A stretch of DNA of 64,000 bases from Chloroflexota bacterium (GTDB taxonomy: Bacteria; Chloroflexota; Anaerolineae; Anaerolineales; Villigracilaceae), in contig JACPVF010000004.1 in the NCBI GenBank assembly GCA_016191845.1, forward strand, positions 1 through 64,000, read 5' to 3'. The notes beneath the pieces are model-generated. The model saw only the letters and a list, made by a program, of their open reading frames with translations. It was not told the origin of the DNA and did no database searches. Every line of letters starts with the position of its first letter. Within the stretch, counting starts at the first letter, position 1. A program made the position numbers and the translations under genes. Below, piece after piece: positions 1 to 50,883 of this stretch.

Positions 1-150
1 GGCAAAGCCGATGCGGTCCTTGACCGAATGGGCGGGGTTGTAGAACTCGAGCTTGGCGAGGACTTCCGCCTTGGCGCCCTCGGTAACGCGGTTGAGGCGC
101 ACCAGCGGGGTGTTGCCGATCAGTTCTGTGACATTGCTTGCAATTTTCAT
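1..150 (-). CDS. cysK: Cysteine synthase (O-acetylserine sulfhydrylase), N-terminal fragment
   Basis: Only the first 50 codons lie in the window; the gene runs off the left edge. The translation begins [19 protein letters not shown] and reaches [11 protein letters not shown], the two N-terminal signatures of the CysK/CysM family. The lysine of SVKDR is the PLP-binding residue in that family. The enzyme makes cysteine from O-acetylserine and sulfide. The ATG has a good ribosome site (GAGGAA, 6 bases upstream). It is the last visible gene of a leftward cluster with a cysteine desulfurase and an Fe-S protein, 24 bases after the latter, so a role in supplying cysteine sulfur to that cluster is inferred. 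CysM or cystathionine beta-synthase-like members cannot be excluded from this fragment. Confidence 0.9.
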
Positions 151-35806: not shown

Positions 35807-38650
35807 ATGCAACCCTCTGAACCCACTCAAGAACCAAGACGGACCGACAAGCAAACCCTCCAATACCGCACCCTGTTGACCTTCGGTGTGGCAGGCATAA
35901 TTGCCGTGATCCTGGTTGAGGTCTTCTACTTCAGCCTGATACGACAGAGCAATAATGCCTGGCAGTATTACGGATTGCTCATCAATAACGCCGTCCTGGG
36001 GCTGGCTATCCTGGTGGGCACCCTTCTGTTATGGCGGACTAAAAATATCTCACTGACAGCCTGGATATTCATCGGCATTGTCAACCTGACCTTTACGGTT
36101 GCCACGATCTTTGTTTCGGGTTTGGGCATCACTTTCGCTTTAGGGGCGGTAGCCTTTACAGCCCTTTTTGCCCTGCAAGCGTTGTCCAGGCGCAGTGTGC
36201 AAGTTGCCCTGGTACTCGGCGGAATGTTCAGCATTATCATGCTTGTCCTCGAATACGGCCTGCACTTCACCGAACGATTGCCGATCGAGTCGCAGATCCA
36301 GCAAGGCGTCATTATCGTGATAGGCGCAGTAGTGTTGTTCTTTGGTATTCATCTTGCCAGCAGCCAGATCGAGTTCAAGTCGCTGCGCACCCAACTCAAT
36401 GCGACTTATCTCATCACTCTGATTGTACCGGTGTTGATGATCGGCGTCCCCGCTCTGTTGAGCACACAGGATATTCTCACTCAGAAATCCAGACAGGGTT
36501 TGCAGGACGCTGCACAACAGGCATCCCAGGAAGTGGAAAGCTTCCTCCAGAGCACACTGAACAATGTGCAGGCAGATGCCTCGCTGCCCAGTTTGATCGG
36601 CTTCCTCAAGGGTGAGGAGACTGCTGAAGAATTGCAGGGTACCCTGTTGGCGCTCGGTTCGGCACAAAGGGAGATCAAGACTTATCTAATCCTCGATGCC
36701 CATGGAAAAAGTCTATTTGATAGCAGCGAGGAACAGGGGCACGTCGCCACGGACGAGTCGAACACTCCATATTATCAGAATGTTATCCTGCACCAACAGG
36801 CCTATGTCTCAGATGTGCTGTTCGATCCACAGACAGGTGCAGCAGAACTATACTTCAGCGCCCCCATTTCAGATGAAGACGGCACCTTGTTGGGCGTGCT
36901 GGTAGTCGAGTTTGATGCGGTCGTTCTGCAAAACCTGATTGCCCAGAACAACGTAACAAACACAGCCTCTTATATCGTTCTGATGGACGAGAACCACACT
37001 ATTCTAGCAGATGGAAGGAACGAGGGGTGGCTGTACAAGACCACCTCCCCGATCAGCACGGCACAGGTCACTGCTTTGCAGAATGCTCGAAGGCTCCCGC
37101 CTGGTCCACAGGAAAAATACCTGTTGAATCTCCCCAACCTGGAGGCTGGCCTGGCAAATTCCAATTCGAATTTCTTCTCTGTGGAGTTGGAAACGAGCGA
37201 TGCATCCCCCAGTGATGACCAAGCCAGCCTGATGCGCATGCAGCTCAAACCATGGACGGTAATTGCTGTGGAGCCTGGTGAGGTCTTCTTGCAACCTTTG
37301 TACGCTCAGTTGGGTGCAGGTGCAGCGCTGTTAGTGTTCCTTTTTATCGGTGCTTTTCTGTTAGCCAATCTATCGTCAAGGATGCTGGTGGCCCCGGTTC
37401 AGTCGCTGACCAAGACTGCGGAACGTATCCAGGCGGGTGACCTCACGGCCCATACCGACATACAACGCTCGGATGAGCTCGGCACCCTGGCCAATGTGTT
37501 GAATCAGACCGCAAGTCAGCTTTCCAATACCCTGAAAAGCCTGGAACGCAGCGTGGCCGAACGCACATATGACCTGGAGATCTCGCGCCTGCAAAGCGAG
37601 GAACGCTCCAGAAATCTGGAAACCATCAGCGAAGTCTCAAAAGCCATTTCTGCCGAGCAGCGCATGGACTTGCTGCTTCCGCTCATCACGCGTACTGTGA
37701 GTGAGAAGTTCGGCTTCTATCACACGGGCATCTTCCTGCTTGACCCGACCCGCACCTATGCCGTTCTGCAAGCAGCCAACAGCGAAGGCGGACAGCGCAT
37801 GCTGGCGCGCGGTCACCGGCTGCAAGTGGGTCAGACAGGTATCGTGGGCTATGTAGCCAACGCAGGGGAACCGCGCATCGCCCTCAACGTGGGTGCAGAC
37901 TCGGCTTTCTTCAACAACCCTGACCTGCCCAATACCCACTCCGAAATGGCCCTGCCGCTGGTTGTGCGCGGCGAAGTGATCGGCGTGCTGGATGTGCAAA
38001 GCGAGAAGCATGGTGCATTCACCGACAACGATGCCAACGTGCTGAGCACCCTGGCCGACCAGGTGGCCATTGCCATCGAAAATGCCCGCCTGTTCGAACG
38101 CACCCAACAGGCTCTCGAAGAAGTACAGAGCATGTACAGCCAGTACCTGCGACAGGAGTGGAAGGGCTTCGCGCAGCAGAACGCCAACATCGGCTATTAC
38201 CATTCGATCAACGGCGGCAGGTTGATCAACAAGCCCGTCCAGAATGAGACCATGCAACAGGCCCTGGAACGCGGCGAAGTAGTCGTAATCGATGGCGGAG
38301 CCACAAGCCAGCCGTCCATCGTCATGCCCGTCAAATTGCGCGGTGAATTGCTCGGCGTGCTGAACGTGATGTCACTGCAAAAGGATCGTCAGTGGGCTAA
38401 GGAGGAAGTAGCGCTGGTGCAGACCGCGTCCGACCGTCTGGCGCTGGCGCTCGAAAATGCCCGTCTGCTTCAGGACTCCCTGCGACGCGCCGAACGTGAA
38501 CGCAAGGTATCTGAGATTACCTCGACCATCCGTTCGACCAACGACCCGAACGAGATGATCCGCCTGGCGGTGCAGGAGTTGAAGAACGCCCTGGGCGTCA
38601 ACCGTATCGAAGTCCTGCCGCAATCCGTTTCGGAGCGGCCCGAATCCTAG
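35807..38650 (+). CDS. Receptor 8: multi-helix plus dCache/HAMP/GAF sensor without output domain
   Basis: A 947-residue paralogue of receptor 7: about six helices at 20-185, TM7 at 197-218, dCache at 219-501 (REIKTYLILDAHGKSLFDSS; FSAPISDEDGTLLGVLVVEF), TM8 at 502-522, HAMP at 523-580, a full GAF at 603-764 (FGFYHTGIFLLDPTRTYAV), a half-GAF module to 888 and the tail (SEITSTIRSTNDPNEMIRLA). The periplasmic domains of receptors 7 and 8 have diverged much more than the GAF parts, which suggests different ligands. The ATG is 23 bases after receptor 7. Confidence 0.92.
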   Translation: MQPSEPTQEPRRTDKQTLQYRTLLTFGVAGIIAVILVEVFYFSLIRQSNNAWQYYGLLINNAVLGLAILVGTLLLWRTKNISLTAWIFIGIVNLTFTVATIFVSGLGITFALGAVAFTALFALQALSRRSVQVALVLGGMFSIIMLVLEYGLHFTERLPIESQIQQGVIIVIGAVVLFFGIHLASSQIEFKSLRTQLNATYLITLIVPVLMIGVPALLSTQDILTQKSRQGLQDAAQQASQEVESFLQSTLNNVQADASLPSLIGFLKGEETAEELQGTLLALGSAQREIKTYLILDAHGKSLFDSSEEQGHVATDESNTPYYQNVILHQQAYVSDVLFDPQTGAAELYFSAPISDEDGTLLGVLVVEFDAVVLQNLIAQNNVTNTASYIVLMDENHTILADGRNEGWLYKTTSPISTAQVTALQNARRLPPGPQEKYLLNLPNLEAGLANSNSNFFSVELETSDASPSDDQASLMRMQLKPWTVIAVEPGEVFLQPLYAQLGAGAALLVFLFIGAFLLANLSSRMLVAPVQSLTKTAERIQAGDLTAHTDIQRSDELGTLANVLNQTASQLSNTLKSLERSVAERTYDLEISRLQSEERSRNLETISEVSKAISAEQRMDLLLPLITRTVSEKFGFYHTGIFLLDPTRTYAVLQAANSEGGQRMLARGHRLQVGQTGIVGYVANAGEPRIALNVGADSAFFNNPDLPNTHSEMALPLVVRGEVIGVLDVQSEKHGAFTDNDANVLSTLADQVAIAIENARLFERTQQALEEVQSMYSQYLRQEWKGFAQQNANIGYYHSINGGRLINKPVQNETMQQALERGEVVVIDGGATSQPSIVMPVKLRGELLGVLNVMSLQKDRQWAKEEVALVQTASDRLALALENARLLQDSLRRAERERKVSEITSTIRSTNDPNEMIRLAVQELKNALGVNRIEVLPQSVSERPES

Positions 38651-38656
38651 TGAGAG

Positions 38657-39454
38657 ATGACCATGACCAAAACAATCGCTATTTCAAATGAAAAGGGTGG
38701 GGTGGCCAAAACCACCACCACGCTCTCGCTTGGGGCCGCCCTGGCGGAATTGGGGCACAAGGTGCTGTTGATCGACCTCGACCCGCAAGCCAACCTGTCG
38801 CTGGCGCTGGGCATCGAGATCGGTGAGAGTGAATACACGTCGAGTAATGTGCTGATCGAGGCTACCCCACTGATGACAGCCGTGCGAACGACGGAGATCA
38901 ACAACCTCGATTTGATACCCTGCAACTCGCGTATCGAGAGCGCCGAACATTTCCTGCCCGTGCGGACGGGGTATATTTCCACCCTGCGCCGTTCGATCCA
39001 AAGCGCTGGCAACATGAAATACGAGTACATCCTGATGGACTGTCCCCCCGCGTTGGGCGCCATCACCATGAATGCACTCAGCGCCGCCAACCTGCTGGTG
39101 ATTCCCACCCAGGCGGAATACTTCTCGGCTTACGCCCTGCGCAACATGATGAACCTCATCCGCCGCATCCGCATGGAAAGCAACGCCGATCTGGCCTATC
39201 GCATCCTGGTGACGATGTTCGACCGCCGCAACCGCACGCATCGCAATATCAACGAGCAGTTGCGCAGCACCTTTGGCGAGGGCGTCTTCAAGACCGTCAT
39301 CGAAGTGGATACCAAACTGCGCGAAAGCCCCATCGCAGGCCTTCCCATTACACAATACCGACCCAACACCCGCGGCTCTGTCCAATATCGTGACCTGGCC
39401 CAGGAACTGGTGGAATATGCCAAAGAAGAAACAGAAAATCGACAAGCGTATTGA
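38657..39454 (+). CDS. ParA/Soj/MinD-type partitioning ATPase
   Basis: A 265-residue protein with the deviant Walker A motif KGGVAKTTTT, IDLDPQANLS and DCPPALGAITMNAL. It has no DNA-binding N-terminal domain and no ParB or parS-like partner next to it, so it is not a chromosome-partition pair. It sits between receptor 8 and the hybrid kinase and overlaps the kinase gene by 38 bases. ParA-like proteins encoded in chemotaxis operons (ParC of Vibrio, PpfA of Rhodobacter) place receptor arrays in the cell; the same job here is inferred. An ATG two codons downstream (38663) is an alternative start. Confidence 0.93.
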   Translation: MTMTKTIAISNEKGGVAKTTTTLSLGAALAELGHKVLLIDLDPQANLSLALGIEIGESEYTSSNVLIEATPLMTAVRTTEINNLDLIPCNSRIESAEHFLPVRTGYISTLRRSIQSAGNMKYEYILMDCPPALGAITMNALSAANLLVIPTQAEYFSAYALRNMMNLIRRIRMESNADLAYRILVTMFDRRNRTHRNINEQLRSTFGEGVFKTVIEVDTKLRESPIAGLPITQYRPNTRGSVQYRDLAQELVEYAKEETENRQAY

Positions 39455-42400
39455 TACGCTCTTTGACGGGATCCAGCCTGAAGAGGCGCCGTCGAAGCCA
39501 AAACGAGGCCAGGCCAAGGGTTCGCGCGAAGCGGGTGGCAGGCAGGTCGCTGACTCGAAATCGATCGTGTCAGCCCGCCCTGCGTCGCGTCAGCCCCTGG
39601 CCTCCACGGGGATCCTCACCCAGCGGGTCGATTCCCTTGTCGTGGATAATGGCAACGACATGGGCGTACCGCCCAGCATCTCCATTGGCTTCCAGACGGA
39701 CCAGACCAACTGGGCCACCCTGCATGTGGTGGACGAGGAACGCACCCGTACCTGGAGTTCCGACGACCAGATGCTCGTCAAGCAGGTGACGGACCAGCTC
39801 TCACTGGCCCTCGAGAATGCACGTCTGTTCCAGAAGGTGAGCGCCAGCGAAGCCCAGTTGAGTGAGGCATTGCGCATTGCACGCCTGGCCAACTGGGAAT
39901 ACGATTTCCTGGCCGACACCTTCACATTCAACGACCAGTTCTACAATGTGATGCGTACCAACGCCGAGCGTGAGGGCGGCTACACCATGAATGCCGCACG
40001 CTATGCGGAACGTTTCGTGCACCCTGACGATGCGCCGCTGGTGGGCATGGAGATCCAGAAGTCGGTCGAGACCACCGACCCGAACTTCAGCGCCAGCCTC
40101 GAACACCGCGTCACCTTTGGGGATGGAACGCTGGGCTATATAGCCGTGCGCTTCCGCATCCAGAAGGATGCGCAGGGACGCACAGTCCGTTCGTTCGGTG
40201 CGAACCAGGATGTCACCGAGAGCAAGATCGGTCAATTGGTGCAGAATGCCACGGCCCAAATCACGGAAGCCGCGCTGAATGCCGCCAGCCTGACGGACCT
40301 GTTGCGCGCCGTCCATGACGCGGCCCAACGGCTGGTTCCCGCCGACAATTTCTACATTGCCTTATACGATCCTTCCGAGGAAGTCATCAACTTCCCGTAT
40401 TTCGTGGACGAAAAGGATCCACCCCCGCCGCCGATGAAGTATGGGCTGGGTCTGACCAGCTACGTCATCCGTACGGCGGCCCCCCTGCTGGTGACGCCCG
40501 AGATGTACGAGCAACTCCAACAGGAAGGTCAGGTCACCCCCGACGGCGCACCCGGCGTGGACTGGTTGGGCATCCCTCTGCGTTCGGCAAAGGGCGTGCG
40601 TGGTGTCATGACCATTCAGACCTATGACCCGAAAATCCGCCTGAACGAGGGTCACATCCAGGGGCTGGTACCGCTGGCCGCCCAGGTGACAGCCGCCATC
40701 GAGCGTTTCGAAGCCCGCGATGCGCTGGCCAGATCCGAAGCAGACCTGCGCACCCTGTTCTCCTCGATGGAAGACGTGGTGTTGGTGGTGGATGGCGAGG
40801 GACGTTACACGCGCATCGCACCGACCAGCCCAGACCTGCTCGTCCGCCCGCCCGGAGAATTGCTCGGCAAACTCATGCATGAAGTGTTGCCGCGCGAGAC
40901 AGCAGACCGCTTCGTTTCCCTCATCCGCCAGACCCTGGAAACAGGCGACAGAATCCAGTTCGAATACGATCTGCCCATCGGAACCACGGTCTACTGGTTC
41001 CTGGCGACTCTCTCGAAATTGAACGAGAATGAAGTCTTCTGGGTGGCTCGTGACATCACCGAGCGAAAACTGGCAGAGGAAAGCCTGAAGCGCCGCAACA
41101 CCTATCTGGCCGCTTCGTCCGACATCGCCCGCCTGGTGACCTCCACCCTCGACCTGAACACCCTGTTCAACCGTACGGTCAACCTGGTACGTGAGCGCTT
41201 CGGTTTCTACCACGCTTCGATCTTCATCATCGAAGAGACCGGTTTCACCGCACACTTGCAAGAAGCCACGGGCGAGGCGGGTGCGGCCATGAAGGCACAA
41301 AGGCACAGCCTGCAGGTGGGTTCGCAGTCCATCGTGGGCCAGGTGACCCAGTCGGGCGTGCCCATCATCGTCAATGACACCGGGGCCAGCACGATGCACA
41401 AGTTCAATCCGCTGCTGCCCGATACCCGCGCTGAGGCGGCCATCCCGCTGCGGGTGGGCAACCGCGTCATCGGCGCATTGGACATCCAGTCCACGCAAAC
41501 GGAGGCCTTCAGCGAGGACGATGTGGCCGTGCTGCAGACCCTGGCCGATCAGGTGGCCATCGCCATCGACAACGCGCGCTCCTACGAGCTCTCGATCGAA
41601 GCCGTGAAGGAAATGCGCGAGATCGACCGCCTGAAGACCACCTTCCTGGCGAACATGAGTCACGAGCTGCGCACGCCGCTCAACTCGATCATCGGCTTCT
41701 CGCGCGTGATCCTCAAGGGCATCGACGGTCCGATCACTGACCTGCAACAAAGCGACCTGACTGCCATCTACAACTCGGGCCAGCACCTGCTCGGTCTGAT
41801 CAACGACATCCTCGATTTGTCCAAGATCGAGGCAGGCAAGATGGAACTGGCCTTCGAGGAAGTCAACATGAACGATATCATTACCAGCGTCATGTCCACA
41901 GTGACAGGCCTGGTCAAGGATAAGCAGATCCGCCTGCTCAAGAACGTTCCCGCTGACCTGCCTCATGCACATGCTGATCCGATCCGCCTGCGTCAGGTGT
42001 TGATCAACCTATTCTCCAACGCGGCCAAGTTCACAGACGAGGGTTCCATCACAGTCGACGCCTACATCCAGAATAATTCCTCGGGCCAGCCCGAGATCTA
42101 TGTGGGCGTGACCGATACAGGTCCTGGCATCGCTGAAAAGGATCAGGTCAAACTCTTCCAGCCCTTCTCTCAGGTAGACGATGCTCCCACCCGCAAGACA
42201 GGCGGCTCGGGCCTGGGCCTCTCGATCAGTCAGCGCCTGATTCACATGCATGGTGGCGAGATCGGCCTCAAGAGCGAAGTCGGCAAAGGCAGCACCTTCT
42301 TCTTCACGCTGCCCATCTACCGCGAACCCAAAGCTGCCGATGATGGTGGAAAGTTGGTCCTGGCCATCGACGACGACCCGCAGGTCATCAGCCTGTACGA

Positions 42401-43097
42401 GCGCTATCTACAATCCTCGGGATACCAGGTCATCCCGCTCAGCGATCCATCGCAGGCAGTCAAACGCGTGGCCGAACTCAAGCCCTTCGCCGTTACGCTC
42501 GACATCATGATGCCCGGAATCGACGGCTGGCAGGTCTTAACTGAGTTAAAATCGAACCCCGAGACCCGCGACATCCCCGTGATGATCTGCTCCATCATCG
42601 AGGAACAGGAGCGCGGATTCAGTCTGGGCGCATCCGACTACCTCGTCAAGCCCATCCTGGAAGAGGATTTGGTCCAGGCGCTCAACCGCATCAATCCTGA
42701 CGGATCCATCCGTGAAGTGTTGGTCATTGACGACAATCCCAATGACTTGAGCCTGATGGGCAAAATGCTCACCGACAATGGCAACTACAAGCCGCTCCTG
42801 GCTCAGGGTGGAGCCAAGGGCTGGGAGATGATCCTCAACCAGGCACCCCAGGCCGTCATCCTCGACCTGTTCATGCCCGATATGGATGGCTTCAAAATCC
42901 TTGAGAAGATGCGCACCAGCAAGGGCCTGAGCGAGATCCCCATCATCGTCGTCAGCAGCGGCGACCTGACGCCCGAGCAACGCAAGCAGCTCGAAGACTA
43001 CGGACAACAATTCGTCCACAAGAGCGGATTGAGCGAGAAGGAACTTATCACCAGCCTCGAACATGCCCTTCAGCGTGTCAAATCAGGCTCGGCTTAG
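39417..43097 (+). CDS. Soluble hybrid histidine kinase: half-GAF/PAS/GAF/PAS/GAF/HisKA/HATPase/REC/REC
   Basis: A 1226-residue cytoplasmic kinase with no membrane helix. A basic start (MPKKKQKIDKR) leads to a truncated GAF (about 87-140, ending LSLALENARLFQKV). Then PAS at 146-268, GAF at 271-431, PAS at 436-551, GAF at 563-721, HisKA with His in SHELRTPLNS (about 747), HATPase with DTGPGIAEKD and GGSGLGLSIS, and two receivers (TLDIMMPGIDG at 979-1091; ILDLFMPDMDG at 1099-1222). The ATG at 39417 is chosen because upstream sequence in this frame only overlaps parA; the overlap is 38 bases. It is the only kinase in the operon, so it is the probable common target of the eight receptors. Confidence 0.93.
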   Translation: MPKKKQKIDKRIDTLFDGIQPEEAPSKPKRGQAKGSREAGGRQVADSKSIVSARPASRQPLASTGILTQRVDSLVVDNGNDMGVPPSISIGFQTDQTNWATLHVVDEERTRTWSSDDQMLVKQVTDQLSLALENARLFQKVSASEAQLSEALRIARLANWEYDFLADTFTFNDQFYNVMRTNAEREGGYTMNAARYAERFVHPDDAPLVGMEIQKSVETTDPNFSASLEHRVTFGDGTLGYIAVRFRIQKDAQGRTVRSFGANQDVTESKIGQLVQNATAQITEAALNAASLTDLLRAVHDAAQRLVPADNFYIALYDPSEEVINFPYFVDEKDPPPPPMKYGLGLTSYVIRTAAPLLVTPEMYEQLQQEGQVTPDGAPGVDWLGIPLRSAKGVRGVMTIQTYDPKIRLNEGHIQGLVPLAAQVTAAIERFEARDALARSEADLRTLFSSMEDVVLVVDGEGRYTRIAPTSPDLLVRPPGELLGKLMHEVLPRETADRFVSLIRQTLETGDRIQFEYDLPIGTTVYWFLATLSKLNENEVFWVARDITERKLAEESLKRRNTYLAASSDIARLVTSTLDLNTLFNRTVNLVRERFGFYHASIFIIEETGFTAHLQEATGEAGAAMKAQRHSLQVGSQSIVGQVTQSGVPIIVNDTGASTMHKFNPLLPDTRAEAAIPLRVGNRVIGALDIQSTQTEAFSEDDVAVLQTLADQVAIAIDNARSYELSIEAVKEMREIDRLKTTFLANMSHELRTPLNSIIGFSRVILKGIDGPITDLQQSDLTAIYNSGQHLLGLINDILDLSKIEAGKMELAFEEVNMNDIITSVMSTVTGLVKDKQIRLLKNVPADLPHAHADPIRLRQVLINLFSNAAKFTDEGSITVDAYIQNNSSGQPEIYVGVTDTGPGIAEKDQVKLFQPFSQVDDAPTRKTGGSGLGLSISQRLIHMHGGEIGLKSEVGKGSTFFFTLPIYREPKAADDGGKLVLAIDDDPQVISLYERYLQSSGYQVIPLSDPSQAVKRVAELKPFAVTLDIMMPGIDGWQVLTELKSNPETRDIPVMICSIIEEQERGFSLGASDYLVKPILEEDLVQALNRINPDGSIREVLVIDDNPNDLSLMGKMLTDNGNYKPLLAQGGAKGWEMILNQAPQAVILDLFMPDMDGFKILEKMRTSKGLSEIPIIVVSSGDLTPEQRKQLEDYGQQFVHKSGLSEKELITSLEHALQRVKSGSA

Positions 43098-43111
43098 GAG
43101 AAACACACTCT

Positions 43112-44782
43112 GTGACCTTTACCATCAAGTGCATGGACTGCGGCTATGTCGCAGAATACCATCCCAGTTCCATCCACTGTCCGCGTTGTAATAGCCAGTG
43201 GCGTGAAGCGGATTACGATTACAAGAACATCGCCGAAAATTTCACTCACCTGATCGCGAACCGCCCCTTCGACCTGTGGCGCTATCGCGAACTCCTCCCC
43301 ATCCGCAACCCCATCCCAAGCCTGCGGTTGGGTGAAGGTGGCACGCCGCTCATCCAGGCCGTCAATCTGGGCATGATGTTGGGCTGCCCCAACCTGTACA
43401 TCAAAGACGAGCGCCAGGGTCCGACGGGCTCCTTCAAGGACCGCCAGGCAGCGGTTACGATTGCAGCCCTCAAGGAGGCCGGCATCACCGAAATGGTGGC
43501 GGCGTCCACGGGCAATGTGGCCATTGCCTACTCGGCCTATGCATCACGCGCCAGTATCAAGCTATGGGCCTTCGTCACCAGCCTAGTGCCCGCCGTCAAG
43601 ATGCGCGAGATCGCGCTGTATGGCAGCCAGGTCATCAAGGTGACAGGGTCCTACGACCAGGTCAAGCAGATGGCAGCCGAGTTCGCCCGTCAGCGCAACC
43701 TGTACCTCGACATGGGTGCGCGCACCATCACCTCCATCGAGGCGATGAAGACCATCGCTTTCGAGATCGCCGAACAGCTGACCGCCCTGCTGGGTCCGCC
43801 TGCGTCCGTCAATGGGAACCAGCCCCCCGTGTGGCGCACGCCCGATTGGTACATCCAGGCCATCAGCGGCGGGATGGGCCCCATCGGCGTCTACAAGGGT
43901 TTCCACGAGCTGAATGAGATGGGCCTGACCGACCGCATGCCTGCCATGGCCCCCATCCAGGCCGACGGCTGCGCGCCGATGGTCAGCAGTTGGAAACGTG
44001 GGCTGGAAAATGCCGAGCCTGTCACCTCGCCCCGCACGCGCATCGAAACCCTGGCTACGGGCGACCCAGGCCGTGCATATAACATCCTGAGCAAACACGT
44101 CAACTTAACCCAGGGCGCTTTCGAGAGCGTCACGGATGAGGAAGCCTACCGCGCCATGCATGTGCTGGCAAAAATGGAAGGCATCTCCGCCGAACCCGCT
44201 GCCGCCGTGGCATTCGCGGGTCTGTTCAAACTCATTCGCGCGGGCATCATCAAGCCGACCGATGTGGTGGTGGTCAATGCCACGGGACACACCATGCCCG
44301 CTGAGCAATTCGTGTTGGGCGAGAACTGGTCGCGTAACATCGTCCTACCGCCCAAGGAGGAGACTCCCGAGGACGGCCTATTGGCCGCGCTCAACAATGT
44401 GGCCCCCGACCGCTTCCCGCGCGTGGCCATTGTGGACGATACTGCCGAGGCCCGCCGCCTTATCCGTCGCATCCTGCAATCGCAGGGCAATTACACCATC
44501 AGCGAAGCCACCAACGGCAGAGAGGGCCTGGAACTGATCCAGCGCGAACTGCCCGACCTGGTCATTCTCGATCTGATGATGCCCGAAATGGACGGCTTCG
44601 CCGTGATGGACGCCCTGCGCGCCCGCCCCGAAACCGCCAACATTCCCGTGATCGTGTCCACCGCCAAGGAACTGACCCCGCAGGAGAAGAACCTGCTTAG
44701 CGGACAGATCCAGGCGTTGATGCAAAAGGGCGATTTCCTCAACGACGAGTTCCTCGAAGAGGTGCGTTCGCTGATCAAATAG
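43112..44782 (+). CDS. thrC: Threonine synthase-like PLP enzyme fused to a receiver domain
   Basis: A 556-residue protein. The N-terminus is a zinc ribbon (C7, C10, C23, C26), as in many threonine synthases. The PLP fold type II domain has the cofactor lysine in PTGSFKDR (about K109), ASTGNVA and the glycine-rich SGGMGPIGV loop. From about 437 to the end it is a complete receiver: VAIVDDTAEA, phosphorylated Asp487 in LVILDLMMPEMDG, Ser/Thr in IVSTAKE and Lys in MQKGD. The GTG start at 43112 follows TTAGGAG by 11 bases and lies 14 bases after the hybrid kinase gene. Threonine synthase makes threonine from O-phosphohomoserine; a fused receiver would let the kinase control that activity or use the enzyme as an amino-acid sensor. 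Confidence 0.9.
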   Translation: MTFTIKCMDCGYVAEYHPSSIHCPRCNSQWREADYDYKNIAENFTHLIANRPFDLWRYRELLPIRNPIPSLRLGEGGTPLIQAVNLGMMLGCPNLYIKDERQGPTGSFKDRQAAVTIAALKEAGITEMVAASTGNVAIAYSAYASRASIKLWAFVTSLVPAVKMREIALYGSQVIKVTGSYDQVKQMAAEFARQRNLYLDMGARTITSIEAMKTIAFEIAEQLTALLGPPASVNGNQPPVWRTPDWYIQAISGGMGPIGVYKGFHELNEMGLTDRMPAMAPIQADGCAPMVSSWKRGLENAEPVTSPRTRIETLATGDPGRAYNILSKHVNLTQGAFESVTDEEAYRAMHVLAKMEGISAEPAAAVAFAGLFKLIRAGIIKPTDVVVVNATGHTMPAEQFVLGENWSRNIVLPPKEETPEDGLLAALNNVAPDRFPRVAIVDDTAEARRLIRRILQSQGNYTISEATNGREGLELIQRELPDLVILDLMMPEMDGFAVMDALRARPETANIPVIVSTAKELTPQEKNLLSGQIQALMQKGDFLNDEFLEEVRSLIK

Positions 44783-44944: not shown

Positions 44945-45886
44945 TTGGTCAATAAAAAGACGGCAGGAATCATTGCTGCGCTGGGATCGGCCCTGTTCCT
45001 AGGGGTCTCGCCGGTCTTCGGTAAGCTGGCCATCACCCAAGGGTTGAGTCCCCTGGCCGTGGTAGCTTTGCGTACCAGCCTGGCCGCAGCCCTGCTCTTC
45101 CTGATCGTTGCCCTGTTCGGTCGTCAATATCTTTACATTTTCCCTGTTGGTTTGATTGGGTGTGTGTTGGCGGGCGTCATCAACGGCCTCGGCTCCCTGC
45201 TCTATTACATGGCGCTCGACCGCCTGCCCGCCAGCCTCGGTCAGATGCTCTACTCGCTCTACCCACTTTTCCTTGCCGTCTGGATGATTCTCGACCGACA
45301 GACCCTCAGCCGTTTGACGCTGATTCGCATTGGGCTGGCCTCCGTGGCGGTCATCCTGCTCACCGACCTTTCCACCAACTCCATCGACTTGACCGGCATG
45401 CTGATGATGATTGGCGCAGCCATGCTCTACGCCCTGCACCTGCCCATCAACCAGCGTGTGCTATATGAAGTACCCGCGCAAACCGTCACGCTATACACTT
45501 TGCTTTCGATGAGCGCAGTGGTTGTGCCTGCCTATTTCCTCTTCGACCGCTCCTGGCCTGCCCAAAATATCCCCTGGGAACCCGTGCTTGGGTTAACGCT
45601 GGCCACTTTCCTCTCACGCCTGGCGCTGTTCCTAGGCGTCAAGCGCATCGGCGGGATGCAAACCGCGCTGCTGGGGTTGGGAGAATTGTTGGTGACTCTG
45701 CTGTTTAGTTATTACTGGCTACACGAAAATCTATCTCCACTTCAATGGATGGGGGCAGCTGGACTTGGCCTCAGCCTGCTCCTGGTCCGATTCGAGAAGA
45801 CCGCCCCCGAAAAACACGCCGAAGGCTGGCTCTCGTGGATCCGTCCACCCGACCCACCCAAGGAAATCTGGCCACCCTACCAATAA
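44945..45886 (+). CDS. EamA/DMT-family transporter
   Basis: A 313-residue integral membrane protein with about ten helices arranged as two EamA repeats (residues about 5-140 and 150-285). Family members export amino acids, nucleosides or other small metabolites, or act as permeases. It starts with TTG at 44945, supported by GGGAGA 7 bases upstream; no usable in-frame ATG occurs near the N-terminus. Its place after an operon that ends in a threonine synthase-like gene makes an amino-acid exporter possible, but the substrate cannot be read from sequence. A bidirectional terminator follows. Confidence 0.88.
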   Translation: MVNKKTAGIIAALGSALFLGVSPVFGKLAITQGLSPLAVVALRTSLAAALLFLIVALFGRQYLYIFPVGLIGCVLAGVINGLGSLLYYMALDRLPASLGQMLYSLYPLFLAVWMILDRQTLSRLTLIRIGLASVAVILLTDLSTNSIDLTGMLMMIGAAMLYALHLPINQRVLYEVPAQTVTLYTLLSMSAVVVPAYFLFDRSWPAQNIPWEPVLGLTLATFLSRLALFLGVKRIGGMQTALLGLGELLVTLLFSYYWLHENLSPLQWMGAAGLGLSLLLVRFEKTAPEKHAEGWLSWIRPPDPPKEIWPPYQ

Positions 45887-45937: not shown

Positions 45938-46675
45938 TTATTCCTCGTTCTCGTACACGTACCCCGTTCCACGCACGCTGACCACACGGTTATTCAGCAT
46001 GGGGAATATCTCCAGTTTATGACGCAGGCGGCTGACCAGCGGCCGCAGGATTTCGGGGGCCTCGCGCTGGGAGGCATCGTAGCCTTGCACCAACAGGACC
46101 AGCTCACGGTGTGAAAAGACCTTGCCCGGGTTCTCCATCAGGATGCGCAGCAGGCGTCCCTCGGCGGGCGTGAGGTGTTCGAGCTTGTCCTTCATGCGGA
46201 TCTGGCGGCGGGAGAGGTCCACCACTGTGCCGTCCTTGAGGCTGAACTGCGCGGAGGGTTCCTCCACGTCCATTTCGCCTCCTGCCCCGCTGCGCACGCG
46301 CAACCGTGACGAGCGGCGAGCCAGTCCCTTCTTGACGCTGGCCATCACCTGTGAGGGCGAGGCAGGCTTGAGCAGGTAATCATGGATTCGCAATCGCAGG
46401 GCCTGGATAGCTGTTTCTGTGGAGCCGAACGCCGTAAGCAGGATGACCTCGGTCTCGGGGGAGATCTGATTGACCACCTGTACCACTTCCAACCCGTCCA
46501 TACCTGGCATGCGCAGATCCACGATCATCAGGTCCACGGGGTGGGTGCGGACGTGTTCCACGGCCGCATGCCCGTTGGGAGCCGAGGCCACGCTGTACCC
46601 CTCAAGCTTGAGGATGTCGGTCAGGGATTGGCGGGCAACAGGTTCATCGTCCACGACCAGGATGTTTGACTTCAT
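45938..46675 (-). CDS. OmpR/PhoB-type response regulator
   Basis: A 245-residue protein. The receiver (about 4-120) has VVDDEPVARQ, the phosphorylated Asp in IVDLRMPGMDG, Thr in LLTAFGS and Lys in LLKPAS. The C-terminal winged helix (about 150-242) has LTPAEGRLLRILMENPG, REAPEILRPLVSRLRHKL and the wing VRGTGYVYE. It should bind DNA when phosphorylated. Its ATG overlaps the stop of the upstream REC-GAF kinase by 4 bases, so the kinase is its likely partner. It is the last gene of the leftward operon. Confidence 0.95.
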   Translation of the reverse strand: MKSNILVVDDEPVARQSLTDILKLEGYSVASAPNGHAAVEHVRTHPVDLMIVDLRMPGMDGLEVVQVVNQISPETEVILLTAFGSTETAIQALRLRIHDYLLKPASPSQVMASVKKGLARRSSRLRVRSGAGGEMDVEEPSAQFSLKDGTVVDLSRRQIRMKDKLEHLTPAEGRLLRILMENPGKVFSHRELVLLVQGYDASQREAPEILRPLVSRLRHKLEIFPMLNNRVVSVRGTGYVYENEE

Positions 46676-48249
46676 CGCTTACCTCCAGTGGGCAAAAAGA
46701 CTCGGAAGCATGCACCTGGGCCGCGATCGGGGAGCAGTTCCAGGGTGCCTCCATGCGCTGTGATGATATTGTAACTTACGGTCAAACCCAGCCCCGTGCC
46801 GCCGTCCTTGGTGCTGAAGAACGGCTCAAAGATATTGGCCTGTTTTTCAGACGGGACACCCGGACCGCTATCTTGAAACAGGATCTCCACCCCTCCACGC
46901 ACGGCCCGCGCAGAAATCCACAAGTGCCCACCCTCGGGCAGTACGTCAGCGGCATTGAGGATCAGGTTAATGAAGACCTGCTGGACCTGACTTCCAACCG
47001 CTTGAATGGGCGGAAGGGAATCAGGGATCTCAAAATCCACGACCACGCTGCGCTCAGACAACTGCTTGGCCATCAGGTGCAACACATGATCGAAGATCTC
47101 GGACAGATTAAGTTTTTCGCTCGAGGCAGGGCCCGGGCGGTAGAAGTCAAGCATGCGCCTGACCGTGACGGTGAGTCGGTCGAGTTCGGTACGGGCCAGG
47201 TCGAAATATTCCTGGCGTTTCTCGGGCGGCAGGTCCTCGCGAGCGGCAAGGTGCAGACAGTTCTGTACAGCCTGCAATGGATTGTTGACCTCATGCGCGA
47301 TGGATGCGCTCAAGCGTCCCGCCGTAGCCATCTTCTCCACCTGAAGCAGGGCCTTCTGGGATTCCTCCACCTTGCGGACGTATTCCAACTGGGCAGCGTA
47401 CAGGCGGGCATTTTCCAGCGCGGCGGCCGCCTGGCGCGCCAGGATCTGGAACATCTCGAAATCGGATTCCTGAAAAGGCGGCTCCTGCGGGTCGCGCGCG
47501 GCGTACAGTACGCTGCGGAAGCTGGGGCGCTGGACGGGAATCAACATGGCGGAGCCCAGCCCGAGGTCCAGTAATTGGCGCTTGAATTTGGCGGCGCGCG
47601 GCCCCTTGGACAAAATCAGGCTGGGGGCATTGGCTTCATCCACTTGAGTCACAACCGAGTCCAGCTTGCCTTCGAAGGCACGGCCACGTTCTTCCATCAA
47701 CTGCAACGACTCGCTGCCTGTGGTCAGGAAATAGCCCGCATGCGGACAACGCAGGTAACCGCAGATGGCGCTGGAGATGAGGTCGAGCAGGCGGTCGGGC
47801 TGGGTTTCAGAAAGCAGGGACTCAGTGACCGAGAAGAGTGGACGCAAGGCACGGGTACGCGAAGCGTCGCGCTTCTGCTGGTTATCGGCCAGAGCCTGCT
47901 GCACAGCCTTGATGAGTTCGTCGCCATGATCGAAGGGTTTGAGCAGGAGGCCGTCCACCCCCTGGCGCAGGGCGCGGATGGCGGTCTCGACCGTACCGTA
48001 GCCCGTCATCACCAGGACGGCGATATCGGGCTGGATGCGCTGGGCGTGAGCGATGACCTCGAAGCCATCCACATCAGGCATGCGGATATCGACCAGCAGC
48101 AGGTCAACCGTGTTGTTGAGCATGAAGTCCACAGCCAGGCGCGAATCGGTCAGCGTGGAGACATGGAAACCCGCGCGCGTGAGCAGGCGCTTGCACAACA
48201 TGGCAATGCCTGGTTCGTCATCGATGACAAGAACAGAGATCGCGTCCAT
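46672..48249 (-). CDS. Histidine kinase with N-terminal receiver and GAF domain
   Basis: A 525-residue soluble protein. The receiver is at 4-122 (DDEP; Asp in LLVDIRMPDVDG; Thr in VMTGYGT; KPF), GAF at about 135-290, HisKA with His in SIAHEVNNPLQ (about 315) and HATPase at about 415-525 with DSGPGVPSEKQ and GGTGLGLTVS. The N-terminal receiver suggests it is itself a target of another kinase, most simply the one encoded just upstream, making a two-kinase relay to the OmpR-type regulator. The ATG shares one base with the previous stop (TAATG). A TTG five codons upstream is less likely. Confidence 0.93.
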   Translation of the reverse strand: MDAISVLVIDDEPGIAMLCKRLLTRAGFHVSTLTDSRLAVDFMLNNTVDLLLVDIRMPDVDGFEVIAHAQRIQPDIAVLVMTGYGTVETAIRALRQGVDGLLLKPFDHGDELIKAVQQALADNQQKRDASRTRALRPLFSVTESLLSETQPDRLLDLISSAICGYLRCPHAGYFLTTGSESLQLMEERGRAFEGKLDSVVTQVDEANAPSLILSKGPRAAKFKRQLLDLGLGSAMLIPVQRPSFRSVLYAARDPQEPPFQESDFEMFQILARQAAAALENARLYAAQLEYVRKVEESQKALLQVEKMATAGRLSASIAHEVNNPLQAVQNCLHLAAREDLPPEKRQEYFDLARTELDRLTVTVRRMLDFYRPGPASSEKLNLSEIFDHVLHLMAKQLSERSVVVDFEIPDSLPPIQAVGSQVQQVFINLILNAADVLPEGGHLWISARAVRGGVEILFQDSGPGVPSEKQANIFEPFFSTKDGGTGLGLTVSYNIITAHGGTLELLPDRGPGACFRVFLPTGGKR

Positions 48250-50846
48250 TAGAGCGGCAACCAAACCGTGAAGATGGATCCGACATCGGGCGTGCTGGCC
48301 ACATCGATCAGGCCACCGTGGTCGGTGATAATGCCGTACGTGACGGACAAGCCCAAGCCCGTCCCGCCGCGTTCCCCCTTGGTAGTGAAGAACGGCTCGA
48401 AGACGCGCTCGAGATCCTGGGGCGGGATGCCCACCCCCGTATCCTGCACCGAGAGAGTCACCCAGGAGCGCGTATCACGGTCAGACGCCGAGGTGGCGAT
48501 TTGCAGGGTTCCACCGTTGGGCATGGCCTGCAAAGCATTGTGGATCAGGTTGAGCAGGACCTGCTTCATCTGATTACGATCCACCGAGACCCAGGGCAGG
48601 TCGCCTGCCAGGTCGAGGATCAACTGCACGCCGCTGGTGTGGATGAGATGATGCGTGAGGGCCACCACGTCCTCGACAACCTCGTTCAGGTCGGCACGGG
48701 TGCGGGTGCGCTCGCCCTGACGCGAGAAATCCAGCAGGCGGCGGACCACGTCGGTGGCGCGTTTGGCCTCGCGCTGGACCATCTCCAGTTCAGTGCGATA
48801 CTGGGCCTCGAGCGGCAGGTCCTCGAGGATCAACTCGGTGAAACCTGTGACCGTGGTGAGCGGATTGTTCAACTCGTGTGCGATGCCCGCCGCCATCTCA
48901 CCCACAGCGGCCAGCTTGGCGGCCTGGATGAGGCGGTTCTCGGCGGCGCGCTGGGCGTCCATGCGGGCCTTGAGTTCCACCTGCGTCTGCCGCAACTGGC
49001 GGACGGTGGATTGCAGACGGCGGTACTGATCCGAATTGGAGATGACCGCCGAGAGGATGCCCGCCAGCGATTCGATGGCCAGCAGGTCGTTGGTGGTAAA
49101 GGCATTGGGTTGGGAGCTTTCGATATCGATGATGCCGAAGACGCGCTCCAGATCACGCAGGGGCACACAGATCTCCGAGGCGGCACTCCAACCAGGCAGG
49201 GCCTGATAATTCGGGTCCTGACGGGTATCGTTGACCAACGTGCTTTCCCCCGTGGTGAAGACGTGTCCCGTAATGCCCGAGAAGATGGCCAAGTCGCGTT
49301 CCCCGACGATCTTGCGGATGGTATCGCCGTGCTTGCCGCCGAAACCGCGGATGAGTTCATTCTGCTCGCGATCCTCGAAGACCACGGCAGCCAGTTCATA
49401 GCCAAAGTATTGCGCCAACAGGTCGGCGGTAATCTGTGCCATCTCCTGCAGATCATGCAGGCCGATCACCTGTTGGACCATCTCATGGATCAATCCCAGG
49501 CTGCGGGCGCGACCCTCGGCTTCCTCGCGTAAACGTCCGTACTCAGCCAACCCCGCCAGGTGGCTGGCAACCACCACCATGAAATTCTCATCGTATTGGC
49601 TGAAGGCTTCGGGACGCGGACTCTCGATGTGGATCGAGCCGATCACCTGTCCGCGGTATCGGAGCGGCACGGCCATGACCGAGCGCGCGCTTTCGTGAAG
49701 GATGGGCAATCCGCTGGCGAAGGTATCCGCACGCACGAGGCGGGCCTTCTTCAGAAACGGCGCAATGGGATGATTCGCAAGCGGTTTCATGCGCGCCGCC
49801 AGTCTGCGTTCGCGGCTGCGGAACTCGCGCACCATACGCCCGTCGATGGAAAGCAGAAAGAGCGTGACCATCTCGGTGCCAAAGGTGCGCGCCAGCAGGT
49901 CGAACACACGGCGGGCGATCTGGTCCAGGTTCTGGGCTGAGGAGATGGTCAGTGCAAAATCGTTCAACATGCCGAGGCGGCGCAAGTGGGCGCTCATCTC
50001 GGAGAAGGTGGCCGCCACTTCCACTGAGGAGGCCAGGTAGGCCGCCAGTTCGCGCAGGGTCTGCCACTCAACGGGGGTCAGGGCAAGGGTCCGCCCCATC
50101 ATCACCACCCCGATCAAACGCTGACCAATCACCAGCGGCAGGCAGACCCAGGCGCGCATGCCGCGCTTGCGAACTGCTGGGGGGATCAAATCCCATTCGG
50201 GTTGGCCCTGGATGGCCACCTGCTCCGAACGCGTGCGGACAAGTCGGCGCAGGAGTTCATTCGACTCGACCTGAAAGGACTCGCCGCTCAAATTGACGTC
50301 ATTCCATGCAGCCAGAACCTCGAACGTTTCGCCGCGACGAATGGCCAGCGCTGCGTTCTGACAGGGCACGGCCTGTGTGAAAGCTTTGAGGATGCGCTCC
50401 AATGAACCAGACAGGTCATAAGGCAGGCTGGCCAACACCTCTTCATGCAGGGTCGGCTGGTCGAGGTAGGCAGGCGTGTGACCAGGCAACAGCGACGCCA
50501 GCAATCGCCATAGGCGGCCGTCGGCGGGATTCTGTCCGTCGGCGGCAACCAGCAGGATGCGCGTGGAATTGGGCACGGGGAAGGCGAACAACCGCGCCGC
50601 ACCCAACCCCGAAGGTAAGGCCTGGGATGAACGCCCGCTCCCGCCGCTCAACATGCCATCCAGCCAGGCGGTCATGGCGGGATCTTCCAGCAGGTGCAAC
50701 AACTGTCCCTGCATGGAGCGGGTCAGTCGCTGGAAGGCCAGCAGATTCCATTTGCCGCCCTCATAGTCAGCCAGGGCCACCCAGCGCGCGGAGGTCAGGC
50801 CGAGGGCTTCTTTGAGGTAATAGTTGAGGTCCGAGGAGGCGACCAT
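48249..50846 (-). CDS. Multi-GAF sensor histidine kinase
   Basis: An 865-residue soluble kinase. It has three or four GAF-like domains over about 30-600 (the last with [20 protein letters not shown] and [19 protein letters not shown]), a coiled coil, HisKA with His in [16 protein letters not shown] (about 651) and HATPase with [20 protein letters not shown] and [12 protein letters not shown]. No membrane helix. The ATG at 50846 was chosen because a TATAAT box lies at 50856-50861; starts farther upstream would lie within or before the promoter. It heads a three-gene operon with a REC-GAF kinase and an OmpR-type regulator. Confidence 0.93.
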
Positions 50847-50855
50847 ACGGTATAA

Positions 50856-50861
50856 ATTATA
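50856..50861 (-). promoter_or_regulatory. -10 box of the kinase operon, almost leaderless
   Basis: Perfect TATAAT on the minus strand ending 9 bases before the ATG at 50846, so the transcript would start 0-3 bases before the coding region. No ribosome site is seen. No good -35 box. Confidence 0.6.
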
Positions 50862-50877
50862 CAGCAGACCCCGATGG

Positions 50878-50883
50878 TACAAT
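50878..50883 (+). promoter_or_regulatory. -10 box of trmFO, leaderless start
   Basis: TACAAT ending 7 bases before the ATG at 50891, divergent from and 16 bases away from the -10 of the kinase operon. Transcription would begin at or next to the start codon. Confidence 0.55.

Follow-up and report, generated by a model that had tools for sequence, protein, structure and literature searches.

The window analysed here, 64,000 nucleotides of a contig from a Chloroflexota bacterium, carries at 43112..44782 on the forward strand a gene for a 556-residue protein that begins with GTG and joins a PALP enzyme domain to a C-terminal receiver (REC). Its frame is open throughout, and homologues were found. 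A probable ribosome binding site, AGGAGA at 43096..43101 (+; read from sequence), lies 10 nt 5' of the GTG and overlaps the stop codon of the preceding gene. That gene encodes a hybrid histidine kinase (39273..43097, +) with PAS, GAF, HisKA and HATPase_c domains and two C-terminal receivers; its stop ends at 43097, leaving a gap of 14 nt to the fusion, as the first-pass annotation had also read from the sequence. The kinase coordinates are those of the longest open reading frame (ORF), and the true start is uncertain because the preceding ParA-like ATPase gene (38657..39454, +; Pfam AAA_31) overlaps the start region, an overlap that recurs in relatives and typically spans 32-65 nt when longest ORFs are compared. 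Further upstream lies a dCache-HAMP-GAF sensor protein identified by Pfam (35807..38650, +), and a related ORF sits upstream in many loci of the group that we call A below. On the 3' side, the fusion is followed by an EamA-family (DMT) transporter (44945..45886, +; Pfam EamA), which matches the carboxylate/amino acid/amine transporter model TIGR00950 weakly, at 56.3 of 230.2 bits and thus far under the cut-off. Beyond it, in convergent orientation on the reverse strand (45938-50882), stand the genes of an OmpR-type response regulator and of two histidine kinases with a GAF or GAF-like domain; this cluster adjoins the fusion locus in many relatives.

The fusion protein opens with a zinc ribbon at residues 7-26 (43130..43189, +), whose four cysteines, C7, C10, C23 and C26, are present in 100 of 100 fusions compared. 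The PALP domain follows at residues 72-392 (43325..44287, +; Pfam PF00291, 209.4 bits, E 9.3e-62), with the PLP lysine K109 in an SFKDR motif (43436..43438, +) and a phosphate-loop signature, S252-G-G-M-G-P257 (43865..43882, +). A linker of residues 393-436 (44288..44419, +), which includes a conserved [E/D]421-G-L-x-x-A-L helix, leads to the receiver at residues 437-556 (44420..44779, +; Pfam PF00072, 73.9 bits), where the Response_reg match itself spans residues 438-539 at E 1.5e-20. The receiver holds the acidic pair D442/D443, the predicted phospho-acceptor D487 (44570..44572, +), T517 and K539. The initial description of a fold-type II PLP enzyme with a zinc ribbon and SFKDR lysine, continued in frame by a receiver with its full set of key residues, is therefore borne out by Pfam and by a single ORF. 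The proposed likeness of this receiver to the kinase's second receiver holds as well: of four further receivers encoded nearby and compared with it, that one scores highest at 74.7 bits (33% identity), ahead of 53.1, 47.8 and 40.4 bits for the rest.

A frameshift or an assembly join between two genes would have undone such a reading, and the source genome is indeed a draft of 18 contigs. Even so, we regard a frameshift, a chimaeric assembly or a chance ORF fusion as vanishingly unlikely. Of 61 genomes of relatives (own genome included), 50 have a match at E<1e-120, and the same fusion appears in about 32 family codes and in named public MAG records (L039-L054: Anaerolineales, Thermoflexales and others). 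Compared with a same-genus copy (L010), differences fall mostly at codon position 3, alike in PALP, linker and REC, with dN/dS values of 0.057/0.763, 0.015/0.441 and 0.045/0.624, respectively. All three parts are under purifying selection. Homologues of this strength, together with third-position bias across all three parts in one continuous frame, exclude a frameshift or the joining of dead fragments. Short PALP fragments do occur at contig ends in this assembly: near both ends of contig C2 in opposite orientation (window 10-132 and G000:C2:76033-76155), and in the first 167 bases of contigs C6 and C10. Probably the assembly broke at a repeated gene in these places.

The fusion spans the class and reaches beyond it, occurring in a large group of Chloroflexota. 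In a class-wide sample, E<1e-120 matches were found in 143 of 396 genomes (154 when every match at E<=1e-62 is counted), the covered range having been seen among the matches listed, which are all but roughly ten; in a phylum-wide sample the figures were 34 of 301 and 36. Across the samples of relatives, class and phylum, the matches carry 32 family codes. Outside Chloroflexota, the strongest matches at E<=1e-62 are stand-alone PALPs (L219-L222), found in 4 of the 244 genomes of cyanobacteria. At the same threshold, none was found in the phyla of L110 (Armatimonadota, 0/151 genomes), L095 (Acidobacteria, 0/247), L057 (Luteimonas, 0/299) or L070 (Cohnella, 0/149), though few candidates were scored per genome, and these zero counts show little, as no genome was positive and a PALP-REC fusion that arose independently and is less similar would escape.

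Conservation was assessed by aligning 100 different fusion proteins with 20 selected stand-alone PALPs, near-duplicates and one stand-alone from the source genome (L001) being excluded. Loss of PLP-site residues had been named at the outset as something that would refute the reading; instead, K109, S132-T-G-N135 and the S252-G-G-x-G-P257 loop are present in all 100 fusions, and K109 in 20 of 20 stand-alones as well. The receiver is held just as strictly, with D443 and D487 in 100 of 100, D or E at position 442 in 100 of 100, and T/S517 and K539 in 99, the remaining row ending at a contig end. Within the linker, G422 and L423 are each conserved in 95 fusions, A426 in 92 and L427 in 95. S252 and P257, by comparison, occur in 0 of 20 stand-alones, and 26 diagnostic positions have one residue in at least 97% of fusions and in at most 10% of stand-alones. 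In a quick likelihood tree of 67 rows, a branch with support of 100 separates the 47 fused rows from the rest, and they still group together, with support of 98, when four cyanobacterial rows are added. A single fusion event would fit this tree, which is unrooted and in which stand-alones have long branches. Identities of PALP and REC correlate over 4950 pairs (r 0.94; means 0.62 and 0.56), as is expected under co-inheritance.

Several variants of the architecture accompany the form seen in the window. We distinguish groups A and B by an E-value threshold; 4 of 14 B rows sit among A rows in the tree. Eight fusions (L171, L172, L174, L175, L177, L178, L179 and L180; ORFs of 693-812 aa) carry two tandem receivers behind the PALP domain, with Pfam confirmation for two of them. 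The source genome itself encodes a second PALP-REC paralogue, L006 (G000:C8:276733-278334; L167:6974-8617), of 49% identity; its gene follows that of a kinase for which no receiver was found, and a stand-alone ThrC gene, L005, is close by.

The association with a histidine kinase is conserved. Counting as kinase-like any ORF that scores 200 bits or more against the kinase of the window and ends between -320 and +600 nt from the fusion start, we found an adjacent upstream kinase in 92 of 99 loci: 71 of 76 in group A, 15 of 15 in group B and 6 of 8 with two-receiver fusions. The H-box pattern is present in 83 of the 92; the nine that lack it are ORFs of at most 489 aa, and at least most of these are pieces cut by short loci. 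The kinase is absent beside the fusion in seven loci, two of which (L149 and L150) belong to a duplicated group-A lineage with peptide deformylase, ZIP transporter and Mrp-like genes as neighbours. Receivers on the kinases were counted with a home-made receiver profile. Of the 71 group-A kinases, 63 carry two, 5 carry one and 3 carry none; in group B, 4 of 15 kinases have two and 11 have none, and in two-receiver-fusion loci none was recognised in 6 of 6. Where no receiver is recognisable on the kinase, in those 11 group-B and 6 two-receiver loci, the fused REC is an obvious phosphoryl acceptor. For example, one group-B lineage (L168) encodes a 1877-aa kinase without a receiver by Pfam, then the fusion, then a free receiver. 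That receivers are carried by either kinase or enzyme is as expected of one relay whose parts have been shuffled. No HPt gene was recognised among the typed neighbours.

Together, these features point to a response regulator with a PLP enzyme as its output. The sequence hallmarks of a response regulator are there—acidic pair, phospho-Asp, Ser/Thr, Lys, and a histidine kinase encoded next door—and the receiver is covalently joined to an intact enzyme domain. We consider it reasonably probable, on the strength of these sequence comparisons, that the adjacent kinase switches the PALP domain, and that the latter belongs to a distinct subfamily and not to housekeeping ThrC. The kinase would autophosphorylate on its HisKA histidine and pass the phosphoryl group to D487 of the C-terminal receiver, either directly or via its own receivers. 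The conserved linker helix may then relay the change to the PALP domain, switching its activity; as an active fold-type II enzyme, the latter would carry out a PLP-dependent reaction on an amino-acid-like substrate. A helix at residues 423-430 appears with moderate confidence in a predicted model of the protein, which was built from 17 sequences with a mean pLDDT of 68 and 103 residues below 50; at this mean pLDDT the PALP-REC interface is not readable from the model.

The direction of control could conceivably be the reverse, with the PALP domain serving as a sensor: by binding an amino acid or PLP adduct, it would gate uptake or drain of phosphoryl groups from the kinase by the receiver, making the protein a metabolite-gated phosphate sink. 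The two receivers already present on the kinase in 63 of 71 group-A loci lend this idea some appeal, since an additional fused receiver could act as such a sink, as do the stand-alone receivers that lie 3' of the fusion in several group-B and two-receiver loci. Yet all catalytic residues are invariant, beyond what ligand binding alone would need, and the cyanobacterial relatives that lack a receiver retain much of the fusion's signature, which suggests a catalytic role; we therefore judge the sensor arrangement decidedly improbable. Those relatives (L219-L222) are 49-51% identical to the fusion protein over residues 3 to about 398, and 19 of the 26 signature residues are retained by all four. 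They differ from it in that the three complete ORFs (398-420 aa) show no receiver; the L219 ORF runs off its contig. Nothing kinase-like turned up in the flanking stretches that were retrieved, and their surroundings are mixed and unlike those of fusion loci, including a GH3-family protein, MFS and Mg-chelatase-like genes.

Alternatively, the receiver might merely tether the enzyme to a kinase cluster, phosphorylation having no effect on activity. ParA-like proteins can position signalling clusters, and 21 of 37 group-A loci encode a ParA-like ATPase upstream (1 of 12 in group B and 0 of 8 with two-receiver fusions). Plain tethering, however, does not require the invariant or nearly invariant D487, D443, T/S517 and K539, and we find this account very unlikely compared with a phosphorylation-switched enzyme.

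What a switched enzyme would make is a separate matter. Of 37 group-A loci, 27 have an EamA transporter gene 3' of the fusion, co-directional and no more than 2.5 kb away (23 of them within 300 nt); the counts are 1 of 12 in group B and 0 of 8 with two-receiver fusions. One might imagine from this arrangement a locus that senses, synthesises and releases its own signal, in which the kinase-switched PLP enzyme would make an amino-acid-like compound for export by EamA with no transcription factor in the path; this we offer as a long shot. No hint of a substrate emerged among the neighbours of copies lacking a receiver or kinase (L149, L150, L159, L160, L172-L178 and the cyanobacterial PALPs); those of L159, L160 and L172-L178 were mixed or of no family, and the cyanobacterial ones mixed. 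For three L159 queries, as for L177:9057-10640 and L160:3144-3983, the strand was taken from the oriented table, and the three from L159 gave no match, possibly because the wrong strand was read.

The first-pass annotation had called the protein threonine synthase-like and treated it as an amino-acid biosynthetic enzyme. The nearest families and folds are indeed threonine synthases: in a fold search with the predicted model of moderate confidence, true threonine synthases come out on top (E 7.9e-24, TM 0.79-0.81 to target), and a viral fold library returned only generic PALP and REC matches. Like ThrC (PDB 6NMX, 6CGQ, 2D1F, 1UIM, 2ZSJ; PRK08197, TIGR00260), the fusion is a fold-type II PALP with the SFKDR lysine and STGN motif, and its N-terminal Cys4 ribbon is common to many stand-alone relatives. 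It departs from ThrC in its C-terminal receiver and in an active-site signature specific to its clade, where SGGxGP and N-[C/A..]-[T/S]-G-H-T replace the stand-alone loop and TGxGLK. Among the 25 families listed, six are NCBIfam threonine-synthase models, and the window protein falls below the cut-off of each (246.2/303, 188.2/421, 150.4/167.1, 137.1/358, 128.9/266 and 122.3/301 bits against cut-off). The paralogue L006, on the other hand, exceeds the TIGR00260 cut-off by 4.6 bits (171.7 vs 167.1).

Residues around the substrate phosphate also set the fusions apart. Ser155 and Arg160 of Thermus thermophilus ThrC, which we take to be substrate-phosphate-binding residues, have no counterparts here: with numbering counted on the enzyme chain and a local alignment that is uncertain, the Ser155 equivalent is Gly in 100 of 100 fusions, and each of the 100 has S, A, G, C, P, V or T at the Arg160 equivalent, although Arg itself is present in only 11 of 20 stand-alones. 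Neighbouring Arg or Lys residues, such as R at 204 (68 of 100) or R at 209 (22 of 100), could take over phosphate binding. Asn188 is also missing from the fusions; since it is absent from all 20 stand-alones too (G in 11, D in 7, S in 2), it has no discriminating value.

The source genome, moreover, has threonine synthase genes elsewhere. Whether a stand-alone thrC exists had been proposed as a check, and two clear ones were found: L005, at 571.2 bits (cut-off 303), and L001, at 294.1 bits (cut-off 167.1). The latter is directly adjoined by thrB (242 bits, cut-off 168.25); the L001 ORF has a long N-terminal stretch that overlies thrB on the opposite strand and is probably spurious. A third stand-alone, L002 (424 aa), passes TIGR00260 by 0.1 bit (167.2 vs 167.1) and is not counted as a clear ThrC. 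A housekeeping ThrC identity is thus set back by the missed cut-offs, the two separate ThrC genes and the replaced Ser155 and Arg160. The fusion might still be a true threonine synthase isoenzyme, one that responds to phosphorylation and tunes threonine flux, in keeping with its conserved PLP residues, its nearest relatives, the passing score of L006, and the proximity of group-B fusions to stand-alone ThrC in the f1 family (L167, L181, L182, L183, L205 and L206). Weighed against the window protein's scores, the two residue replacements, the clade-specific signature and the ThrC gene beside thrB, we think such an isoenzyme rather unlikely. The PALP domain is probably not a threonine synthase; it forms a clade of its own, probably a subfamily that descends from the threonine-synthase branch.

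DNA binding or second messengers are what most receivers control, and response regulators with enzymatic output are familiar from CheB and PleD. Direct phospho-control of a biosynthetic enzyme was initially thought very unusual, a view that is borne out only in part. According to section 14 of PMC5847659, receivers on standard metabolic enzymes have been seen several times in bacteria, and archaeal cases of narrow distribution include KaiC-like and BcsA-like proteins, thioredoxin reductase and pyruvate phosphate dikinase. These share with the fusion the principle of a metabolic enzyme under environmental control; that section names no PALP, and its archaeal cases are phyletically narrow whereas the fusion is class-wide. 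PorX, as described in PMC11320123, likewise joins a receiver to an enzyme domain, but there the receiver is N-terminal and the output an alkaline-phosphatase-superfamily phosphodiesterase; the fusion has its receiver at the C terminus and a PLP enzyme as output. Elsewhere in the PALP family, PMC12172450 describes a cyanobacterial ThrC with added threonine-deaminase activity. No PALP-REC protein was found in the literature searched, which did not extend to two response-regulator censuses (PMC3086695 and 10.1128/JB.01887-05) where a mention is possible. The idea of a receiver on a metabolic enzyme is already published.

Read from sequence, then, the locus encodes one intact protein with conserved catalytic and receiver residues, linked to a kinase in a genome with separate ThrC genes; from these attributes we infer phosphotransfer, coupling between PALP and REC, catalytic activity and a substrate different from that of threonine synthase. 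A histidine kinase is seemingly wired straight to a PLP enzyme, and across a bacterial class this arrangement persists, in versions with one or two receivers. If true, a metabolic reaction is switched directly and not via gene expression, which would offer a test case for control of small-molecule metabolism by Asp phosphorylation without transcription. It also marks a subfamily of PLP enzymes that is likely misannotated as threonine synthase.
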